Shown: positions 2,411 to 9,334, numbered from the stretch's first letter. The stretch is 38,550 nucleotides of DNA from Patescibacteria group bacterium (GCA_018813815.1 JAHJAY010000011.1:1-38550), one strand, 5' to 3'. The notes: generated from the sequence alone by a model not told the origin. Made by a program: numbers and translations.

Positions 2411-2448
2411 TCAGAATCAAGTACCTAACCTTATTCTGTGAATTTTTT

Positions 2449-2769
2449 TCAGGCTATTTTCTTAATTATTTTTACACCTTTTATTCCAAGAATCAAAAGA
2501 CAAAAAATTAATACTTTTAAAATAAAATGACCATGTATATCTATAAAATTTCTGGTCATGGGAGTTATTTTACCAACGAGTAAATGAACAAGAATTCCAA
2601 TTGGTAAAGTTAGAAATAACCAATTTTGTTTTGGTACATCAAGCCTGAGTTTTAGAAAGATTTTAGATAATAATGGAGAGAGTAAATGCATTCCTAGAAA
2701 TGCTGCCGAAAAATCAAAAATTGCGTATCCTCCAAGTCGAAATTGTCTAAGAAATTCTATTGTGGTCAT
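2449..2769 (-). CDS. small hypothetical membrane protein (cassette-like position)
   Basis: 106-aa ORF with about 3 hydrophobic segments. Starts 8 bp after an attC-like right end. Confidence 0.65.
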   Translation of the reverse strand: MTTIEFLRQFRLGGYAIFDFSAAFLGMHLLSPLLSKIFLKLRLDVPKQNWLFLTLPIGILVHLLVGKITPMTRNFIDIHGHFILKVLIFCLLILGIKGVKIIKKIA

Positions 2770-2777
2770 CTAATTTT

Positions 2778-2864
2778 ATTTAACGTTTTGGTATATCCAA
2801 AAATCGCTGGATTTATAATTAATGCATTTTAAGAAAGTTTCCAGTTTTCGGGTTTATATTATAG
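2778..2864 (-). repeat. attC-like element a (between GNAT and small membrane protein genes)
   Basis: Minus strand ends in ...AATTATAAATCCAGCGATTTTTGGATATACCAAAACGTTAAAT; GTTAAAT fits GTTRRRY. Shares AATTATAAATCCAGC and GGATAT with element b. Confidence 0.6.
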
Positions 2865-3356
2865 TGCCTTGGCATATAAATAACGATCTTCCATTTTCCC
2901 ACTTCTTCCCTGTATCGTTTTTCTGAGCAACCCCTCTTTAAGATATTTGTTTTTGATAGCAACCTTTTTGCTTGCTTTGTTTTTTGGATGCACAATTATC
3001 TGAATTCTTTTCAAGTTTAACTGTTTAAAACAAATATTTTCAGCCAACTTTACTGCCTTTGTGGCAATTCCCTTTCCCCAAAATTTATCATCAACAAAAT
3101 AACCAATCTCTCCGATATAGTTCCTATGATAGTCTATCTTTATTCCAATTGCTCCAACTATTTCATCATCAAAAAGGATTGTGTAGTTCCACTCTGTATT
3201 GTTTTTCCTGCGTTTTGAATTTTGCTTAAGCCAATTTTTTTCATCTTCAATTGATTTTGGCTTAACATTAAAATAGGTAAAATTAGGGCTATTCAGAATT
3301 TCGAAAAAGCGTTTTGCATCGCTAACTCTTTGCAGTCTTAATTTAATTTTTGGCAT
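2859..3356 (-). CDS. GNAT family N-acetyltransferase (RimJ/RimL-like)
   Basis: LRLQRVSDAKRFFEILNSP ... IGEIGYFVDDKFWGKGIATKAVKLAENICF ... NLKRIQIIVHPKNKASKKV. Confidence 0.9.
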   Translation of the reverse strand: MPKIKLRLQRVSDAKRFFEILNSPNFTYFNVKPKSIEDEKNWLKQNSKRRKNNTEWNYTILFDDEIVGAIGIKIDYHRNYIGEIGYFVDDKFWGKGIATKAVKLAENICFKQLNLKRIQIIVHPKNKASKKVAIKNKYLKEGLLRKTIQGRSGKMEDRYLYAKAL

Positions 3357-3441
3357 AACTTTTTGATTTCTATTTTACTACAAAATTACCCAATATTGAT
3401 GAATGAATGGACTTGCATGAGCCTCATATACCGCGTTATGT
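3353..3441 (-). repeat. attC-like element d (between glyoxalase and GNAT genes)
   Basis: Minus strand ACATAACGCGGTATATGAGG ... AAAAAGTTATGC. The left end matches element c (TAACGCGGTATATG.GG). The right end overlaps the GNAT start codon. Confidence 0.55.
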
Positions 3442-3460
3442 GATTTTAAATTTGTACTGT

Positions 3461-3892
3461 TTAATTATACTCAGCTAACTCAAGAATTATTTTATCTGGT
3501 CCACTAAAATAACACAATCTTTTTTTGCCGTGAATTTGTACATTTGAAAAAAAATGTACTCCTAAATTTTTTAACCTCTGATATTCTTTGTCAATATTTT
3601 TTACTTCAAGGGCCACATGTCTAAAGCCTATTCGATTTACTTGGTCGATTTTAGGATCTTTATCCCCAAGTGGATTATAATACTGAATAAGTTCTATATT
3701 GATTCTAGCGTTGGGAAAAACTAATTTTGCATATTTTGCCTTGGCGCGTGATAAACCAACTATTTTATCCATCCATTTTCCTTTAAGTATTTCCTCTTTT
3801 TCAAGCCTAAAGCCAAGCAAATCAATAAAAATTTTTTTTGATTCTTCTAAATCAGTTACTGATATATTAATATGATCAATTTTTTTAATCAT
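3461..3892 (-). CDS. VOC/glyoxalase family protein
   Basis: KIDHINISVTDLEESKKIFIDLLGF ... GFRHVALEVKNIDKEYQRLKNLGV ... DKIILELAEY. Confidence 0.88.
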   Translation of the reverse strand: MIKKIDHINISVTDLEESKKIFIDLLGFRLEKEEILKGKWMDKIVGLSRAKAKYAKLVFPNARINIELIQYYNPLGDKDPKIDQVNRIGFRHVALEVKNIDKEYQRLKNLGVHFFSNVQIHGKKRLCYFSGPDKIILELAEYN

Positions 3893-3924
3893 TAAAATAA
3901 TATAAATTTTATTTCTTTTCCATC

Positions 3925-4683
3925 TTACTCCCCAAACTTGATCACGTCACCAGTTCCATATTTCTTGGTTTTAAATTCATTGTGAAAACGTACTAATGTG
4001 GGAAAATCAACGCAGTGCATTGGGTAAAGTCTTTCGATCTTTTCTGCTTTAAAATATTCAATAGTACCATCTACTGCTTTTTGATCTTCTTCTTCAAATA
4101 AATGGAATCCTCCAATAACAGAATATAGCTTTTGACCGGTAACTTCTTTTGCATACTCGCATATATTGCAAATGCCAGAATGCGAACACCCGGTTAAAAC
4201 TACAACCCCACTTTTAGTCTTAATAGCTAAAGCGGAATCGTCAAGCATTTTGTCGTTCTCGAACATTCCTTTTTCAAAGTCTGTTTTTCTCGGAATTTCA
4301 CCTAAATAGAAAATACCTGGACTAAATTCGAATGGCTTCTTCGAACGAATAATTTCAAAATCGTTCTTAACTTTTTTACATTCGGATGGAGGTAATTTTT
4401 CAAGGATTTGAGGATGAATAATCATCTTCTTTTTTGTTTTGAAATTATGGTATCGAAGCCCACCAGTATGATCCAAATGAAAATGGGATAAAACGACAAA
4501 ATGCGTATCTTCAAGGTTAATTTTGAGTTTTTTAGCATTACGCCAATAAATATCAGTGCTGCCTGTGTCAAAAAGAATATTAACCCCATTGCTTTGAATA
4601 AAAGCAGAAAATCCCCATTCCGATACACATTTATCCCAACCCGCCTCAGATGTTTCGTTTTCACATAATAATGTTATTTTCAT
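3925..4683 (-). CDS. MBL-fold metallohydrolase (7,8-dihydropterin-6-methyl-4-(beta-D-ribofuranosyl)-aminobenzene 5'-phosphate synthase-like)
   Basis: LSHFHLDHTGG metal-binding motif, GCSHSGICN, IGGFHLF, MHCVDF. Confidence 0.88.
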   Translation of the reverse strand: MKITLLCENETSEAGWDKCVSEWGFSAFIQSNGVNILFDTGSTDIYWRNAKKLKINLEDTHFVVLSHFHLDHTGGLRYHNFKTKKKMIIHPQILEKLPPSECKKVKNDFEIIRSKKPFEFSPGIFYLGEIPRKTDFEKGMFENDKMLDDSALAIKTKSGVVVLTGCSHSGICNICEYAKEVTGQKLYSVIGGFHLFEEEDQKAVDGTIEYFKAEKIERLYPMHCVDFPTLVRFHNEFKTKKYGTGDVIKFGE

Positions 4684-4691
4684 ACGTCTTC

Positions 4692-4815
4692 GCTTAATGT
4701 TATTGTATATGCGAAATTGCGTTATTTTATAATTATTGTACCAAAATTGCGCAAGTTGGGTGACCCTGAGCGAATGAAATGAATTGAATGGGAAACCGCA
4801 TATACCGCGTTAGGC
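4692..4815 (-). repeat. attC-like element c (between NUDIX and MBL genes)
   Basis: Minus strand begins GCCTAACGCGGTATATGCGG (GCCTAAC fits RYYYAAC) and ends CGCATATACAATAACATTAAGC. The arms share a 9-bp perfect inverted repeat GTATATGCG/CGCATATAC. Total 124 bp. Confidence 0.65.
4763..4793. repeat. REP-like imperfect palindrome, copy 2 (inside attC-like element c)
   Basis: ACCCTgagcgaatgaaatgaattgaATGGG; closely resembles copy 1 on its 5' side. Confidence 0.45.
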
Positions 4816-4824
4816 GATGTAAGT

Positions 4825-5274
4825 TTAATTTGCTTTTCCTAAAATCCGTAAAGCTTCAAGAGAAAGTTCTTTTACATTTACAGGCATTTTTACTTTTTCA
4901 AGTTCATCTTCCGTGAACCACTTTAAATCGCTAACCTCACCATCCTCTGGATTTAGCCTAAATGTATTTGCGTTTGCATAATATATAAAATCAATATGTT
5001 GGTGGAACTCATTTATGTCCTCTAAAATAATATGCACTGGGCGCATAAGCTGCTTTGCATTGCCAAAGTCTATTTTTTTGTCAGCAGAATATAGTTCAAC
5101 ATCAAGACCAGCCTCTTCCTTGATTTCTCTTAAGGCAGCTTCCTGTGGCAACTCATCGCGATCAATGTGTCCACCAACCGGAAGCCAAATACCTAACTTT
5201 TTATGCAAATGCAAAAGAACTTTATTTTTATAAATAATTACCGTTGTAGCTGTAAAATGGCGGGTTATTTCCAT
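4825..5274 (-). CDS. NUDIX hydrolase
   Basis: Nudix box GGHIDRDELPQEAALREIKEEAGL. Confidence 0.93.
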   Translation of the reverse strand: MEITRHFTATTVIIYKNKVLLHLHKKLGIWLPVGGHIDRDELPQEAALREIKEEAGLDVELYSADKKIDFGNAKQLMRPVHIILEDINEFHQHIDFIYYANANTFRLNPEDGEVSDLKWFTEDELEKVKMPVNVKELSLEALRILGKAN

Positions 5275-5294
5275 AATTAAATTAAATTTATTTC

Positions 5295-5408
5295 ATATAG
5301 CGTTTCAACATATCCGAAGATAGCTGGATTTATAATTGTATTTTACCAAATCTAGCTATTTTGAGCGAATGCCGAGCCGAGACATCAACCGAATATACTG
5401 TATTATGC
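5295..5408 (-). repeat. attC-like element b (upstream of NUDIX gene)
   Basis: Minus strand GCATAATACAGTATATTCGG ... AATTATAAATCCAGCTATCTTCGGATATGTTGAAACGCTATAT. Same architecture as elements a and c. Confidence 0.6.
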
Positions 5409-5412
5409 GCCC

Positions 5413-5433
5413 CTCCTGAGCTTGTCGAAGGAG
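5413..5433. repeat. REP-like palindrome, copy 3
   Basis: CTCCTgagcttgtcgaAGGAG. Confidence 0.6.
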
Positions 5434-5509
5434 AGCGAGAATGCAATGTGGTCAAGTACCCGAACCCAAACCCTCTAAAGTAATCAAAAGTAATGATATA
5501 ATCCGTGCC

Positions 5510-5587
5510 ATGGAAAGACAAAAAGCATTCCTTGGGTGGAAGTGTAAATTATCGCCAGATGAAGTCCAGCTAGCAAAAGAAGAGTAG
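5510..5587 (+). CDS. possible 25-aa small ORF (MERQKAFLGWKCKLSPDEVQLAKEE)
   Basis: ATG lies 8 bp after an extended -10 (TGATATAAT, 5494-5502), so a transcript could be nearly leaderless. No homology assessed. Confidence 0.3.
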   Translation: MERQKAFLGWKCKLSPDEVQLAKEE

Positions 5588-5660
5588 GTTGGCTGTTGAT
5601 TTATTGTACACTTCTATCTAAAATTTGGGTAATTAAGATTAATCAGAATTATGGTGAGCA

Positions 5661-5697
5661 GTTCGACCTGAGCTCACTGTCGAAGGTCTTTTCGAAC
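5661..5697. repeat. REP-like palindrome, copy 4
   Basis: Nested arms GTTCGACCTgagctcactgtcgaAGGTCttttcgaac. Confidence 0.6.
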
Positions 5698-5708
5698 CAT
5701 AAAGAACC

Positions 5709-6389
5709 ATGAAAATTGATGTTTTAACCATTTTTCCGGAAATGTTTGCTGGGCCGTTAGATGCAAGTTTAATTGGCAAGGCTCAAAAAAAAGGCTTAGT
5801 ACAAATTAAAATTCATGATTTGCGCCGCTGGGCTGAAAACAAATATCAAAGCGTTGATGACCGCCCTTTTGGCGGCGGACCGGGCATGGTGATGCGCCCA
5901 GATGTCATTGATCGGGCCATTAAATCCTTAAACCTTAACCGTAAATCAAAAGTAATTTTGCTTACCCCGCAAGGAACTGTTTTTAATCAAAAAAAAGCCC
6001 AAAAATTATCAAAGGAAAAACACCTTATTTTTATCTGCGGCCATTATGAAGGCGTAGATGAACGAATAAGAGAACATTTGATTGATGAAGAAATTTCGAT
6101 TGGCGACTATGTTTTAACCGGCGGCGAACTTCCGGCTATGGTGGTAATTGATACGGTTGTGCGGCTAATACCAAACGTGGTTGGTAAACCGGAATCTTTA
6201 GAACAAGAGTCGTTTACTACAAACCGCCTGGATCATCCCCAATACACCCGACCGGCTGATTATAAAGGCTGGCAAGTACCAAAAGTGTTGCTTTCCGGCG
6301 ATCATCAGCAAATCGCCGAGTGGCGTAAAAAACAAGCTTTAAAAAAAACTAAAGCCCGGCGACCGGATTTACTGCTTAATAATCGCTAA
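5709..6389 (+). CDS. trmD: tRNA (guanine-N1)-methyltransferase
   Basis: KIDVLTIFPEMFAGPLDASLIGKA, DDRPFGGGPGMVM, ICGHYEGVDERI, EISIGDYVLTGGELPAM. Confidence 0.97.
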   Translation: MKIDVLTIFPEMFAGPLDASLIGKAQKKGLVQIKIHDLRRWAENKYQSVDDRPFGGGPGMVMRPDVIDRAIKSLNLNRKSKVILLTPQGTVFNQKKAQKLSKEKHLIFICGHYEGVDERIREHLIDEEISIGDYVLTGGELPAMVVIDTVVRLIPNVVGKPESLEQESFTTNRLDHPQYTRPADYKGWQVPKVLLSGDHQQIAEWRKKQALKKTKARRPDLLLNNR

Positions 6390-7303: not shown

Positions 7304-9334
7304 TTACATTTTTAATTTTTTTCCGTACCACTCTTTATAATATTGCTGATAATCGCCTGATTTGACCCGCTGCCACCAAGCTTGGTTCTGCTGATACCAT
7401 TCAACTGTTTTTTGTAAATAAGTATCAAAATCGTGTTCGGGCGCATAACCAAGTTCTTTTTTCGCTTTAGACCAATCAACCGCATATCGGCGATCATGGC
7501 CGGGTCGGTCTTTGATCATGACAATCATTGATTCATCTTTGTTCAAAAGCTTGATAATTTTTTTAATCACTTGTAAATTACTAATGTCTTCGGTTAAACC
7601 GCCAATACAATAAGTCTCACCCACCCGGCCTTTTTGTAAACAAAGATCAATCGCCCGGCAATGATCATCAACATACAACCAATCACGAACATTTAAACCA
7701 TCACCATAAAGCGGCATTTTTTTATTGGCTAAAAGATTGGTAATCGCCAAGGCAATTAGTTTTTCCGGAAACTGATAAGGCCCAAAATTATTTGAAGTGT
7801 TGGTAATCGTCATCGCTAAACCATAAGTTTTAAAATAGGCACGGACCAAATGGTCAGAGGCGGCCTTACTGGCGGCATAAGGACTATTGGGGGCAAATGA
7901 AGTTTGCTCATTGAATTTTTCTTTTGAATCTAAAGCTAAAGAACCAAAAACCTCATCAGTGCTAACATGATGAAAACGTTTGACTTTATTTTTTAACGCT
8001 GCCGCCAACAAAACCTGAGTGCCGACAACATTAGTGGTTATAAACTCGGCTGGCTCAAGAATTGAGCGGTCAACATGGGTGTTGTGACAAACTATATTTC
8101 CAATGCCGCAAACAAAATTGTGAGTTTTTTCTACTTCTAAATCATAGACCCAACCTTCATAATCAATTTCAGATTTTTTCTTCTGGCTCAACCCATAATG
8201 TTGACCGGACAATTGAGTTTTAAACTCCCAACTCTTTTTATAATTTCCACGCTTCGATTCAAAAACTCTAAAATCCTTCCTTAAAAGGCTCAATAAAAGG
8301 CTAAGTTGATTAGCAAGCTTGTAGGAAGTCGTTGAATATCTTCCATCTTTTGTGCCATCGCCTTCAAGTAATTTTTTCCAAAAAAACTGCCTCTTTTCTA
8401 CTGTTAAGTCAAAAATCCAATTGGGGAAATATTTCTGATCACAATATTTCCCACAATTTTTTATTAAATAGTTAAAGAATTTCTTATTGGATACTTGTAG
8501 AGCATAGACTAATTTATAGGATTGCTTTTTATGTCTAATAATACAGTAGTTAAACCCAAATTCTGCTTTTATTGCTCTACCTAAACTCTCAAGCCATTTT
8601 TTGTTTCCCTGACTAATTTCTACAATATAACCCCCATTGGCTTTATTGAAAGTTGCATTTCCTTCTGTAATATAAGCGGCTAAAATCTTCAGAAGATCTT
8701 TGCTGGTTTTTTTGTGTTTTTTCCTCACTTCATTGACTTCTCTCACAACTAATAATTCTGGGTTTGACCTAGGATTAGTTAACTCAAGGTTTGCCGAGTA
8801 AATGGAATGGTTTGGAGTTGCTTCTATAACGCCCCATTTTTGTTTTAATTTAATAATTTTACCTTTATACCAATGTCGAGTAATCGCTTTAATTGGCATC
8901 CATTGACCACCATTAAGAAAACTTAATGCCTTAGTTTGTCTTCCTTTCAAAAAAATAATTTCTCCTTTGTCGGTTTTTCGGGGTTTATTATTTTTCGATT
9001 GCTCAATCCACAATCCAGCAAAAGTAACCATTCTCGTTCCTATACGAGGAGTTGATTGAATTGGAATATAAATATTTTCAGGAATGCTTTCAGCCGCAAA
9101 ATGAATAACAATCTCAACGTCACTCATTACTTGATTAACCAGCTTGGAATCGCAAATATCACCCCTAACAAAAGAGTATTGAGGGTTATTCTCAAGCGCC
9201 TTAAGGTTCTCTAAATTACCGGCATAAGTCAATTTGTCTAAATTAATTAATTGATCCTCAGGATGATTACTTAACCAATAATGAATAAAGTTAGCGCCAA
9301 TAAAACCGGCTCCACCAGTGACTAATAACTTCAC
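7304..9334 (-). CDS. rfbB: dTDP-glucose 4,6-dehydratase precursor containing an intein (GTG start)
   Basis: N-extein MKLLVTGGAGFIGANFIHYWL...IHFAAE; C-extein THVDRSILEPAEFITTNVVGT...STDEVFG...YAASKAASDHL...NNFGPYQFPEKLI. The spliced product would be 340 aa, a normal RfbB length. Confidence 0.95.
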   Translation of the reverse strand: MKLLVTGGAGFIGANFIHYWLSNHPEDQLINLDKLTYAGNLENLKALENNPQYSFVRGDICDSKLVNQVMSDVEIVIHFAAESIPENIYIPIQSTPRIGTRMVTFAGLWIEQSKNNKPRKTDKGEIIFLKGRQTKALSFLNGGQWMPIKAITRHWYKGKIIKLKQKWGVIEATPNHSIYSANLELTNPRSNPELLVVREVNEVRKKHKKTSKDLLKILAAYITEGNATFNKANGGYIVEISQGNKKWLESLGRAIKAEFGFNYCIIRHKKQSYKLVYALQVSNKKFFNYLIKNCGKYCDQKYFPNWIFDLTVEKRQFFWKKLLEGDGTKDGRYSTTSYKLANQLSLLLSLLRKDFRVFESKRGNYKKSWEFKTQLSGQHYGLSQKKKSEIDYEGWVYDLEVEKTHNFVCGIGNIVCHNTHVDRSILEPAEFITTNVVGTQVLLAAALKNKVKRFHHVSTDEVFGSLALDSKEKFNEQTSFAPNSPYAASKAASDHLVRAYFKTYGLAMTITNTSNNFGPYQFPEKLIALAITNLLANKKMPLYGDGLNVRDWLYVDDHCRAIDLCLQKGRVGETYCIGGLTEDISNLQVIKKIIKLLNKDESMIVMIKDRPGHDRRYAVDWSKAKKELGYAPEHDFDTYLQKTVEWYQQNQAWWQRVKSGDYQQYYKEWYGKKLKM
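8081..9088 (-). mobile_element. intein with LAGLIDADG-type homing endonuclease region (336 aa) in RfbB
   Basis: Ser1 (SIPENIYIPI), block B-like ATPNHSIYS, two LAGLIDADG-like helices (LLKILAAYITEGN; FFWKKLLEGDGT), block F-like VYDLEVEKTHNFV, C-terminal GNIVCHN, then Thr+1. Removal restores FAAE-THVDRSI. Confidence 0.93.

Follow-up and report, generated by a model that had tools for sequence, protein, structure and literature searches.

In a stretch of 38,550 nucleotides (hereafter, the window) from a Patescibacterium assembly of 845 kb in 49 contigs, which is 94% complete, five small genes are interleaved with related elements on the minus strand, between positions 2449 and 5408. The question raised by this locus is whether the row is a cassette array left behind by an integron and, if so, by which kind of integron. 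The original prediction described it as CALIN-like, that is, as an integrase-less cassette array with four related attC-like elements. Our analysis supports that reading and leads us to a more specific one: what remains in the window is a decaying Patescibacterial chromosomal integron without its integrase, a reading to which we assign a probability of about 0.88.

The order of elements and genes on the minus strand (b, NUDIX, c, MBL plus glyoxalase, d, GNAT, a, membrane protein) and the tight packing of the genes against the elements are present as claimed. The parts of the locus are the following.

2449..2769, minus strand: small membrane protein of 106 aa, the last cassette gene, with a 48%-identical relative found by tblastn in locus L088
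2778..2820, minus strand: element a, only the 3' half, with a perfect R' GTTAAAT (2778-2784)
2859..3356, minus strand: GNAT acetyltransferase, cassette gene (PF13302, E 3e-25)
3353..3441, minus strand: element d, degraded, with R'' ACATAAC and L'' GCGGTATATGAGG retained and L' gone
3461..3892, minus strand: glyoxalase-family protein (PF00903, E 4e-13)
3925..4683, minus strand: metallo-beta-lactamase-fold (MBL) hydrolase (PF00753, E 1.6e-11)
4692..4815, minus strand: element c, attC-like, with R'' GCCTAAC, L stem TATATGCG/CGCATATA and degenerate R' ATTAAGC
4825..5274, minus strand: NUDIX hydrolase, cassette gene flanked by b and c (PF00293, E 1.5e-16)
5295..5408, minus strand: element b, attC-like, with R'' GCATAAT (5402-5408), L'' AGTATATTCGG, L' CGGATAT, two inner hairpins and degenerate R' GCTATAT (5295-5301)
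5409..5708, no strand: 300-bp gap between b and trmD, the place of attI and integrase in relatives, with neither recognisable
5709..6389, plus strand: trmD, the anchor gene adjoining the array (PF01746, E 6e-70; synteny in L079, L080 and L090)

The R' of element d (GTTATGC) overlaps the start codon of the GNAT gene. No element lies at the MBL/glyoxalase junction, as had been proposed, and these two genes, with MBL as the first, probably form one two-gene cassette. The 106-aa membrane protein has no match in a Pfam search. To the left, the array is bordered by a MacB-type ABC transporter and a DUF5666-like protein, and to the right by trmD, rmlD and rmlB. The rmlB frame of the window (7304-9334, minus strand) is interrupted between HFAAES and THVDRS by about 330 aa resembling an intein, which end in ...VCGIGNIVCHN|T, while rmlB is unbroken in relatives such as L090 (144-1157).

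The relatedness of the four elements is visible in shared blocks, one of 48 nt common to a, b and c (65-79% identity, with a and b 79% identical) and another of 23 nt common to c and d (87% identity). A loose R''/R' pattern scan gave about 85 matches in the window and is worthless as evidence, an Rfam search of the array region gave zero matches, single-sequence DNA folding of the elements was uninformative (z from -1.6 to +1.1), and none of the 10 matches of the ATAACGCGGTATAT pattern in viral contigs resembles an element. The ACCTAAC at 2423-2429, put forward as a further core site, consists of seven nucleotides that lack arms, and we do not retain it.

A pattern derived from elements c and d matched twice within 514 bp in a genome of the same order (G409), whose contig L041 carries four elements in a single orientation, one of them of textbook form, GCCTAAC-ACGGTATATGCGG...CATCGCATATTCTGGAAC-GTTAGAT. 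Since MAFFT misaligned these four elements when given them alone, b and c of the window served as guides, and our first covariance model, R1, consists of three L041 elements plus b and c. The R1 scores of b (102 bits) and c (94 bits), both training sequences, are therefore not independent, and for this reason a second model, R2, draws on 42 elements from genomes other than this one and contains no window sequence. Scanned over the 38.5-kb window, R2 matches b (68 bits, E 6e-16) and c (59 bits, E 2e-13) only, the E-values of both home-made models being rough; the test is not fully independent, because the R2 elements were found through R1, which was trained on b and c. Element d, which was held out of R1, scores 25 bits with that model (E 0.005), and element a, whose left end is unrecognisable, is not matched by R2 in the window. 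Elements b and c are beyond chance and are full-length attC-like sites, so that the claim of four related attC-like elements stands for these two, with d degraded and a reduced to a 3' half. In the whole genome there are four R1 matches at E <= 0.05, three of them inside the array; the elements are not genome-wide repeats.

The genome of the window is the sole member of its family in our comparison set, and the same locus was compared across its order, in which R1 elements occur in at least 13 of 88 genomes. In G392, five elements in a row on one strand are followed by a divergent tyrosine recombinase and then by trmD; in G448, the elements are followed by a recombinase that overlaps trmD by 4 bp, and then by rmlD and rmlB; in G385, the elements adjoin trmD and such a recombinase is absent from the 12 kb examined. 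The gene order of the window is that of G392 (array, integrase, trmD) and of G448 (array, integrase, trmD, rmlD, rmlB) minus the integrase. The contig L088, from another family of the order, bears R1 elements together with the relative of the membrane protein. Gene content is variable, with relatives carrying other genes at the same trmD-side place. Because arrays with different genes lie at the same place in four families of one order, we favour reading the array of the window as what is left of a chromosomal integron inherited at trmD. In the gap at 5409-5708, a six-frame search with 58 recombinases and a scan for the attI motif found no trace of either, and an A11-type recombinase at E <= 1e-70 was not found in the 94% complete genome of the window, in agreement with the predicted absence of an integrase from the window. 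The integrase of G392 is itself frameshifted near its 3' end (L079, 12102-12915), which may mean that the loss of the integrase is under way in this array, unless it is an assembly error.

The covariance scan that had been recommended for recombinase-linked copies found them in many Patescibacteria. When the recombinase family was searched in named genomes, the best 80 loci (L098-L177) came mostly from many groups of this phylum, among them Magasanikbacteria, Uhrbacteria, Kuenenbacteria, Nomurabacteria, Moranbacteria, Peregrinibacteria, Gracilibacteria, Roizmanbacteria and others; a few, some of them short contigs, are labelled Margulisiibacteriota, Deltaproteobacteria or Micrarchaeota. All 65 R1 matches at E<0.05 near these recombinases lie upstream and on the opposite strand, although 584 kb (70%) of the scanned flanks were downstream vs 251 kb upstream. 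An element is present in 29 of the 45 loci having at least 600 bp upstream of the recombinase; in the other 35 of the 80 the array-side end of the contig is less than 600 bp from the recombinase, a hint that assemblies break at the repeated elements. Among 380 Patescibacteria, 48 have the recombinase (E <= 1e-70), 68 have R2 elements (E <= 0.001) and 40 have both (Fisher p 8e-28). Most of these loci come from metagenome bins, and binning is not the cause of the co-occurrence, because recombinase and array stand on one contig in G317 and G128, both single-contig genomes, and in L123 (contig of 867 kb). One genome (G012) has, among the matches listed, nine elements over 25 kb, ending 3.6 kb from the recombinase.

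The anatomy of the elements was analyzed in 42 aligned members. They have inverted R''/L''...L'/R' arms with a GTT core (R'' RYNYAAC, R' GTTRKRY) and a 10-bp L stem that is 96% paired, and they fold into three strongly covarying stems, namely the L stem and two inner hairpins, the latter carrying conserved CCCAWATT and AACWTC motifs. Compensatory changes are found in 19 of the 22 predicted pairs; with the R box added, double changes are found in 21 of 27 pairs, and the covariation is 0.52 vs 0.15 for shuffled and about 0.10 or less for slid alignments. The L stem is contiguous, with no extrahelical base, in 41 of the 42 elements, and its G.T pairs are as rare as A.C pairs (4 and 6 of 420 cells), which fits pairing at the level of DNA rather than RNA and disfavours reading the elements as transcript structures. 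An extended -10-like sequence, TGnTAnAAT, lies in the tip hairpin of some elements (L120, L133, L131, and b and c of the window); among 65 elements, 9 contain it in the forward and 10 in the reverse direction, vs 0.8 in shuffles, and because it occurs in both directions we make no claim of an embedded promoter. Upstream of the recombinase there is an attI-like single site, TTCGTATA-N-AAAC-S-A|GTTRNNY, read away from the gene and often with a second half site further upstream, whose motif is found in 43 of 66 upstream regions and in 0 control stretches.

The array-linked recombinase has about 270 aa, with PF00589, a SAM-like N-domain and conserved catalytic residues. Against NF040815 XerA_Arch (cut-off 220), full-length members score 203-229 bits; against the integron-integrase profile TIGR02249 (cut-off 265) they score 207-224 bits, in two segments between which the IntI-specific part is passed over. 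They are about 43 residues short at the place of the IntI-specific I2: from KGxKDR to LRHSF there are 71 residues (78 in one), compared with 113-114 in IntI and 72-82 in Xer. The predicted structure (pLDDT 88.7) has only a loop at the I2 position, and its closest Protein Data Bank match is IntI4 (2a3v). In a quick maximum-likelihood tree, in which the IntI rows are few and mostly Vibrio-like, IntI forms one clade (100) and the Patescibacterial enzymes form a group, supported at 88 when G142 and G331 are set aside; both, together with IS91-associated recombinases, lie on a branch (96) apart from XerC, XerD and XerA, with no resolved sisterhood to IntI. The recombinases of G142 and G331 are ruled out as IntI, as neither has I2. 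The related recombinase of G142 (L014) has a different insertion (about 32 residues) in the interval from KGxKDR to LRHSF, its reading frame contains a TGA, and this genome also has R2 elements. Separately, the viral contigs L178-L184 contain Vibrio-type IntI genes with a C-terminus altered directly after TTQIYT or TTQL, a change such as phage integration at the 3' end of the gene might leave.

A cassette that travels in circular form must have an R' at its beginning that agrees with the R'' at its end. An exact match is found in 17 of 43 cassettes, where random pairing would give 3.0 on average and gave at most 10 in 2000 draws; within the same element, R' and R'' match in 8 of 59 cases. Homologous cassettes in different hosts run from GTT to R'' in the pairs L041/L079 and L154/L171, both copies of the latter starting at the attI-like core, and stop instead at R' in L132/L142. 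Three shared cassettes (L041/L079, L154/L171 and L111/L152) have the same sequence up to R'' and a different attC body, for which simple cassette transfer does not account; the attC bodies may be exchanged or replaced independently of the gene. Two further hairpin motifs recur near cassettes within the arrays, AGAGGGG..AAGGTGTTTTCTCCGCT..GCTCCGAAAACGATTTA on the 5' side of the units and CTTGGC..GGCATTCACCCC..CCCCTCTGCCC..GCCAAG on the 3' side, the largest unit having a restriction-modification operon. They lie in L041 (1-110 and ~4965-5095) and L079 (~8240-8290), and also in L101, L108, L111, L112, L122, L123, L132, L133, L142 and L152, and might represent either another mobile unit or a leader with a regulatory role.

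These shared cassettes, bounded by R' and R'' with differing bodies between, look as if half sites recombine, and they give some weight to an exchange of Xer/dif modules, in which the half elements would be duplex dif-like sites used on double-stranded DNA by an Xer-type recombinase, folding being irrelevant. The size of the enzyme is indeed that of Xer proteins, and its scores reach or approach the XerA_Arch cut-off. We nevertheless consider this explanation unlikely: the inner hairpins, needless for a duplex site, covary strongly, and the matching R' and R'' of cassettes and the single attI-like site beside the gene fit cassette insertion. Far less probable is the horizontal acquisition of a classical IntI integron that has kept nothing but its attC sites, IntI being merely absent from the assembly. 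The appeal of this view is that the R box consensus RYNYAAC/GTTRKRY is almost classical and that CALINs are common (PMC9024848, PMC9668308), but searches of the window's own genome, of 88 genomes from its order and of 380 from the phylum gave no recombinase above the TIGR02249 cut-off, the array-side recombinases have no IntI insertion, and R2 matched none of the classical attC sites (Vibrio, class 1 and class 2 integrons). Hardly credible, finally, are ordinary interspersed palindromic repeats (MITE- or REP-like) placed between genes by chance, since the elements, palindromic, intergenic and present in several genomes as they are, and with an unrelated short repeat nearby (5415-5430), are few and clustered in their own genome, match between cassette ends and not within an element, and by their one-strand, one-side orientation and their co-occurrence with one recombinase family largely refute that view.

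Under the reading of a Patescibacterial chromosomal integron, the intact layout seen in relatives comprises the recombinase gene and, 5' of it on the opposite strand, the attI-like site followed by a row of small genes, each accessory gene ending in an attC-like element. The recombinase would most likely act at the G/TT of GTTRNNY, inserting cassettes there as circles in attI, and excising or shuffling them at the same G/TT in the attC-like elements. Each element folds as a stem with two inner hairpins, as covariation shows, and the folded single strand, not duplex DNA, would be the substrate; activity, catalysis and the circular intermediate are proposed here from sequence comparison. The lineage of the window would have lost the recombinase and attI beside trmD and kept the captured genes while the outer elements decayed. 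The remnant is probably inactive, because the R' sites of b and c are degenerate, as had been pointed out, its cassettes have an R' and R'' that differ from each other, and a and d are fragments.

I2 and single-strand recombination have been described as exclusive to integron integrases, with intermediates lacking (eLife 2020, PMC7790495), and the origin of I2 and attC as a chicken-and-egg paradox (PMC4792948). We give about even odds to the broader proposal that Patescibacteria of many classes carry I2-less integrons with folded attC-like sites that have no extrahelical bases, and that cassette capture thus exists without, and perhaps before, the acquisition of I2. If true, such a widespread system would be the missing comparison for the origin of integrons and could help explain their evolution, I2 being the part thought to have made integrons possible, and the reduced Patescibacteria would gain a gene-capture system. 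The study of archaeal integrons defined IntI by an IntI-specific profile, and as standard detection needs that domain, I2-less integrons would be missed or filed as CALINs (PMC9668308). In the open-licence full-text literature, preprints excluded, we found no description of integrons in Patescibacteria, which does not prove priority.

Compared with known systems, the Patescibacterial enzyme shares with Xer/dif the form of an I2-less tyrosine recombinase of about 270 aa with affinity to NF040815 XerA_Arch; it differs in grouping with IntI and IS91-associated recombinases and in being tied to arrays, not to a single dif, and the half elements resemble an Xer/dif module (unequal 11-bp arms, a 6-8 bp centre, XerCD) by eye only. 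Like the archaeal integrons and CALINs (PMC9668308), the system belongs to uncultured lineages and is seen in metagenome bins, the archaeal cases being mostly CALINs; archaeal IntIs are reported to keep the IntI-specific domain, which the Patescibacterial enzymes do not have. Like a CALIN, the window carries two or more attC-like sites inside 4 kb in a genome from which an integrase is absent, the two full sites, b and c, lying 0.5 kb apart; CALINs are defined by classical attC models, whereas the sites of the window are defined by R1 and R2, and two of the four are decayed. With chromosomal (sedentary) integrons, the loci of relatives share the divergent integrase, the attI-like site, small cassettes in one orientation, the RYNYAAC/GTTRKRY cores, inverted L boxes, matching cassette ends across loci and accessory cargo; in the window, attI and integrase are absent and the decayed cassettes have no matching cores. 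The integron of the original prediction therefore holds as a cassette array but not as a member of the classical IntI family, its elements being a separate structural family. The differences are an integrase with no I2 (71 vs 113-114 residues), an L stem with no extrahelical base and two conserved inner hairpins in the attC body, and the first two belong together, because I2 reads those bases (PMC4792948). The system departs from classical integrons in I2 and the extrahelical bases, and is integron-like in every other tested feature.
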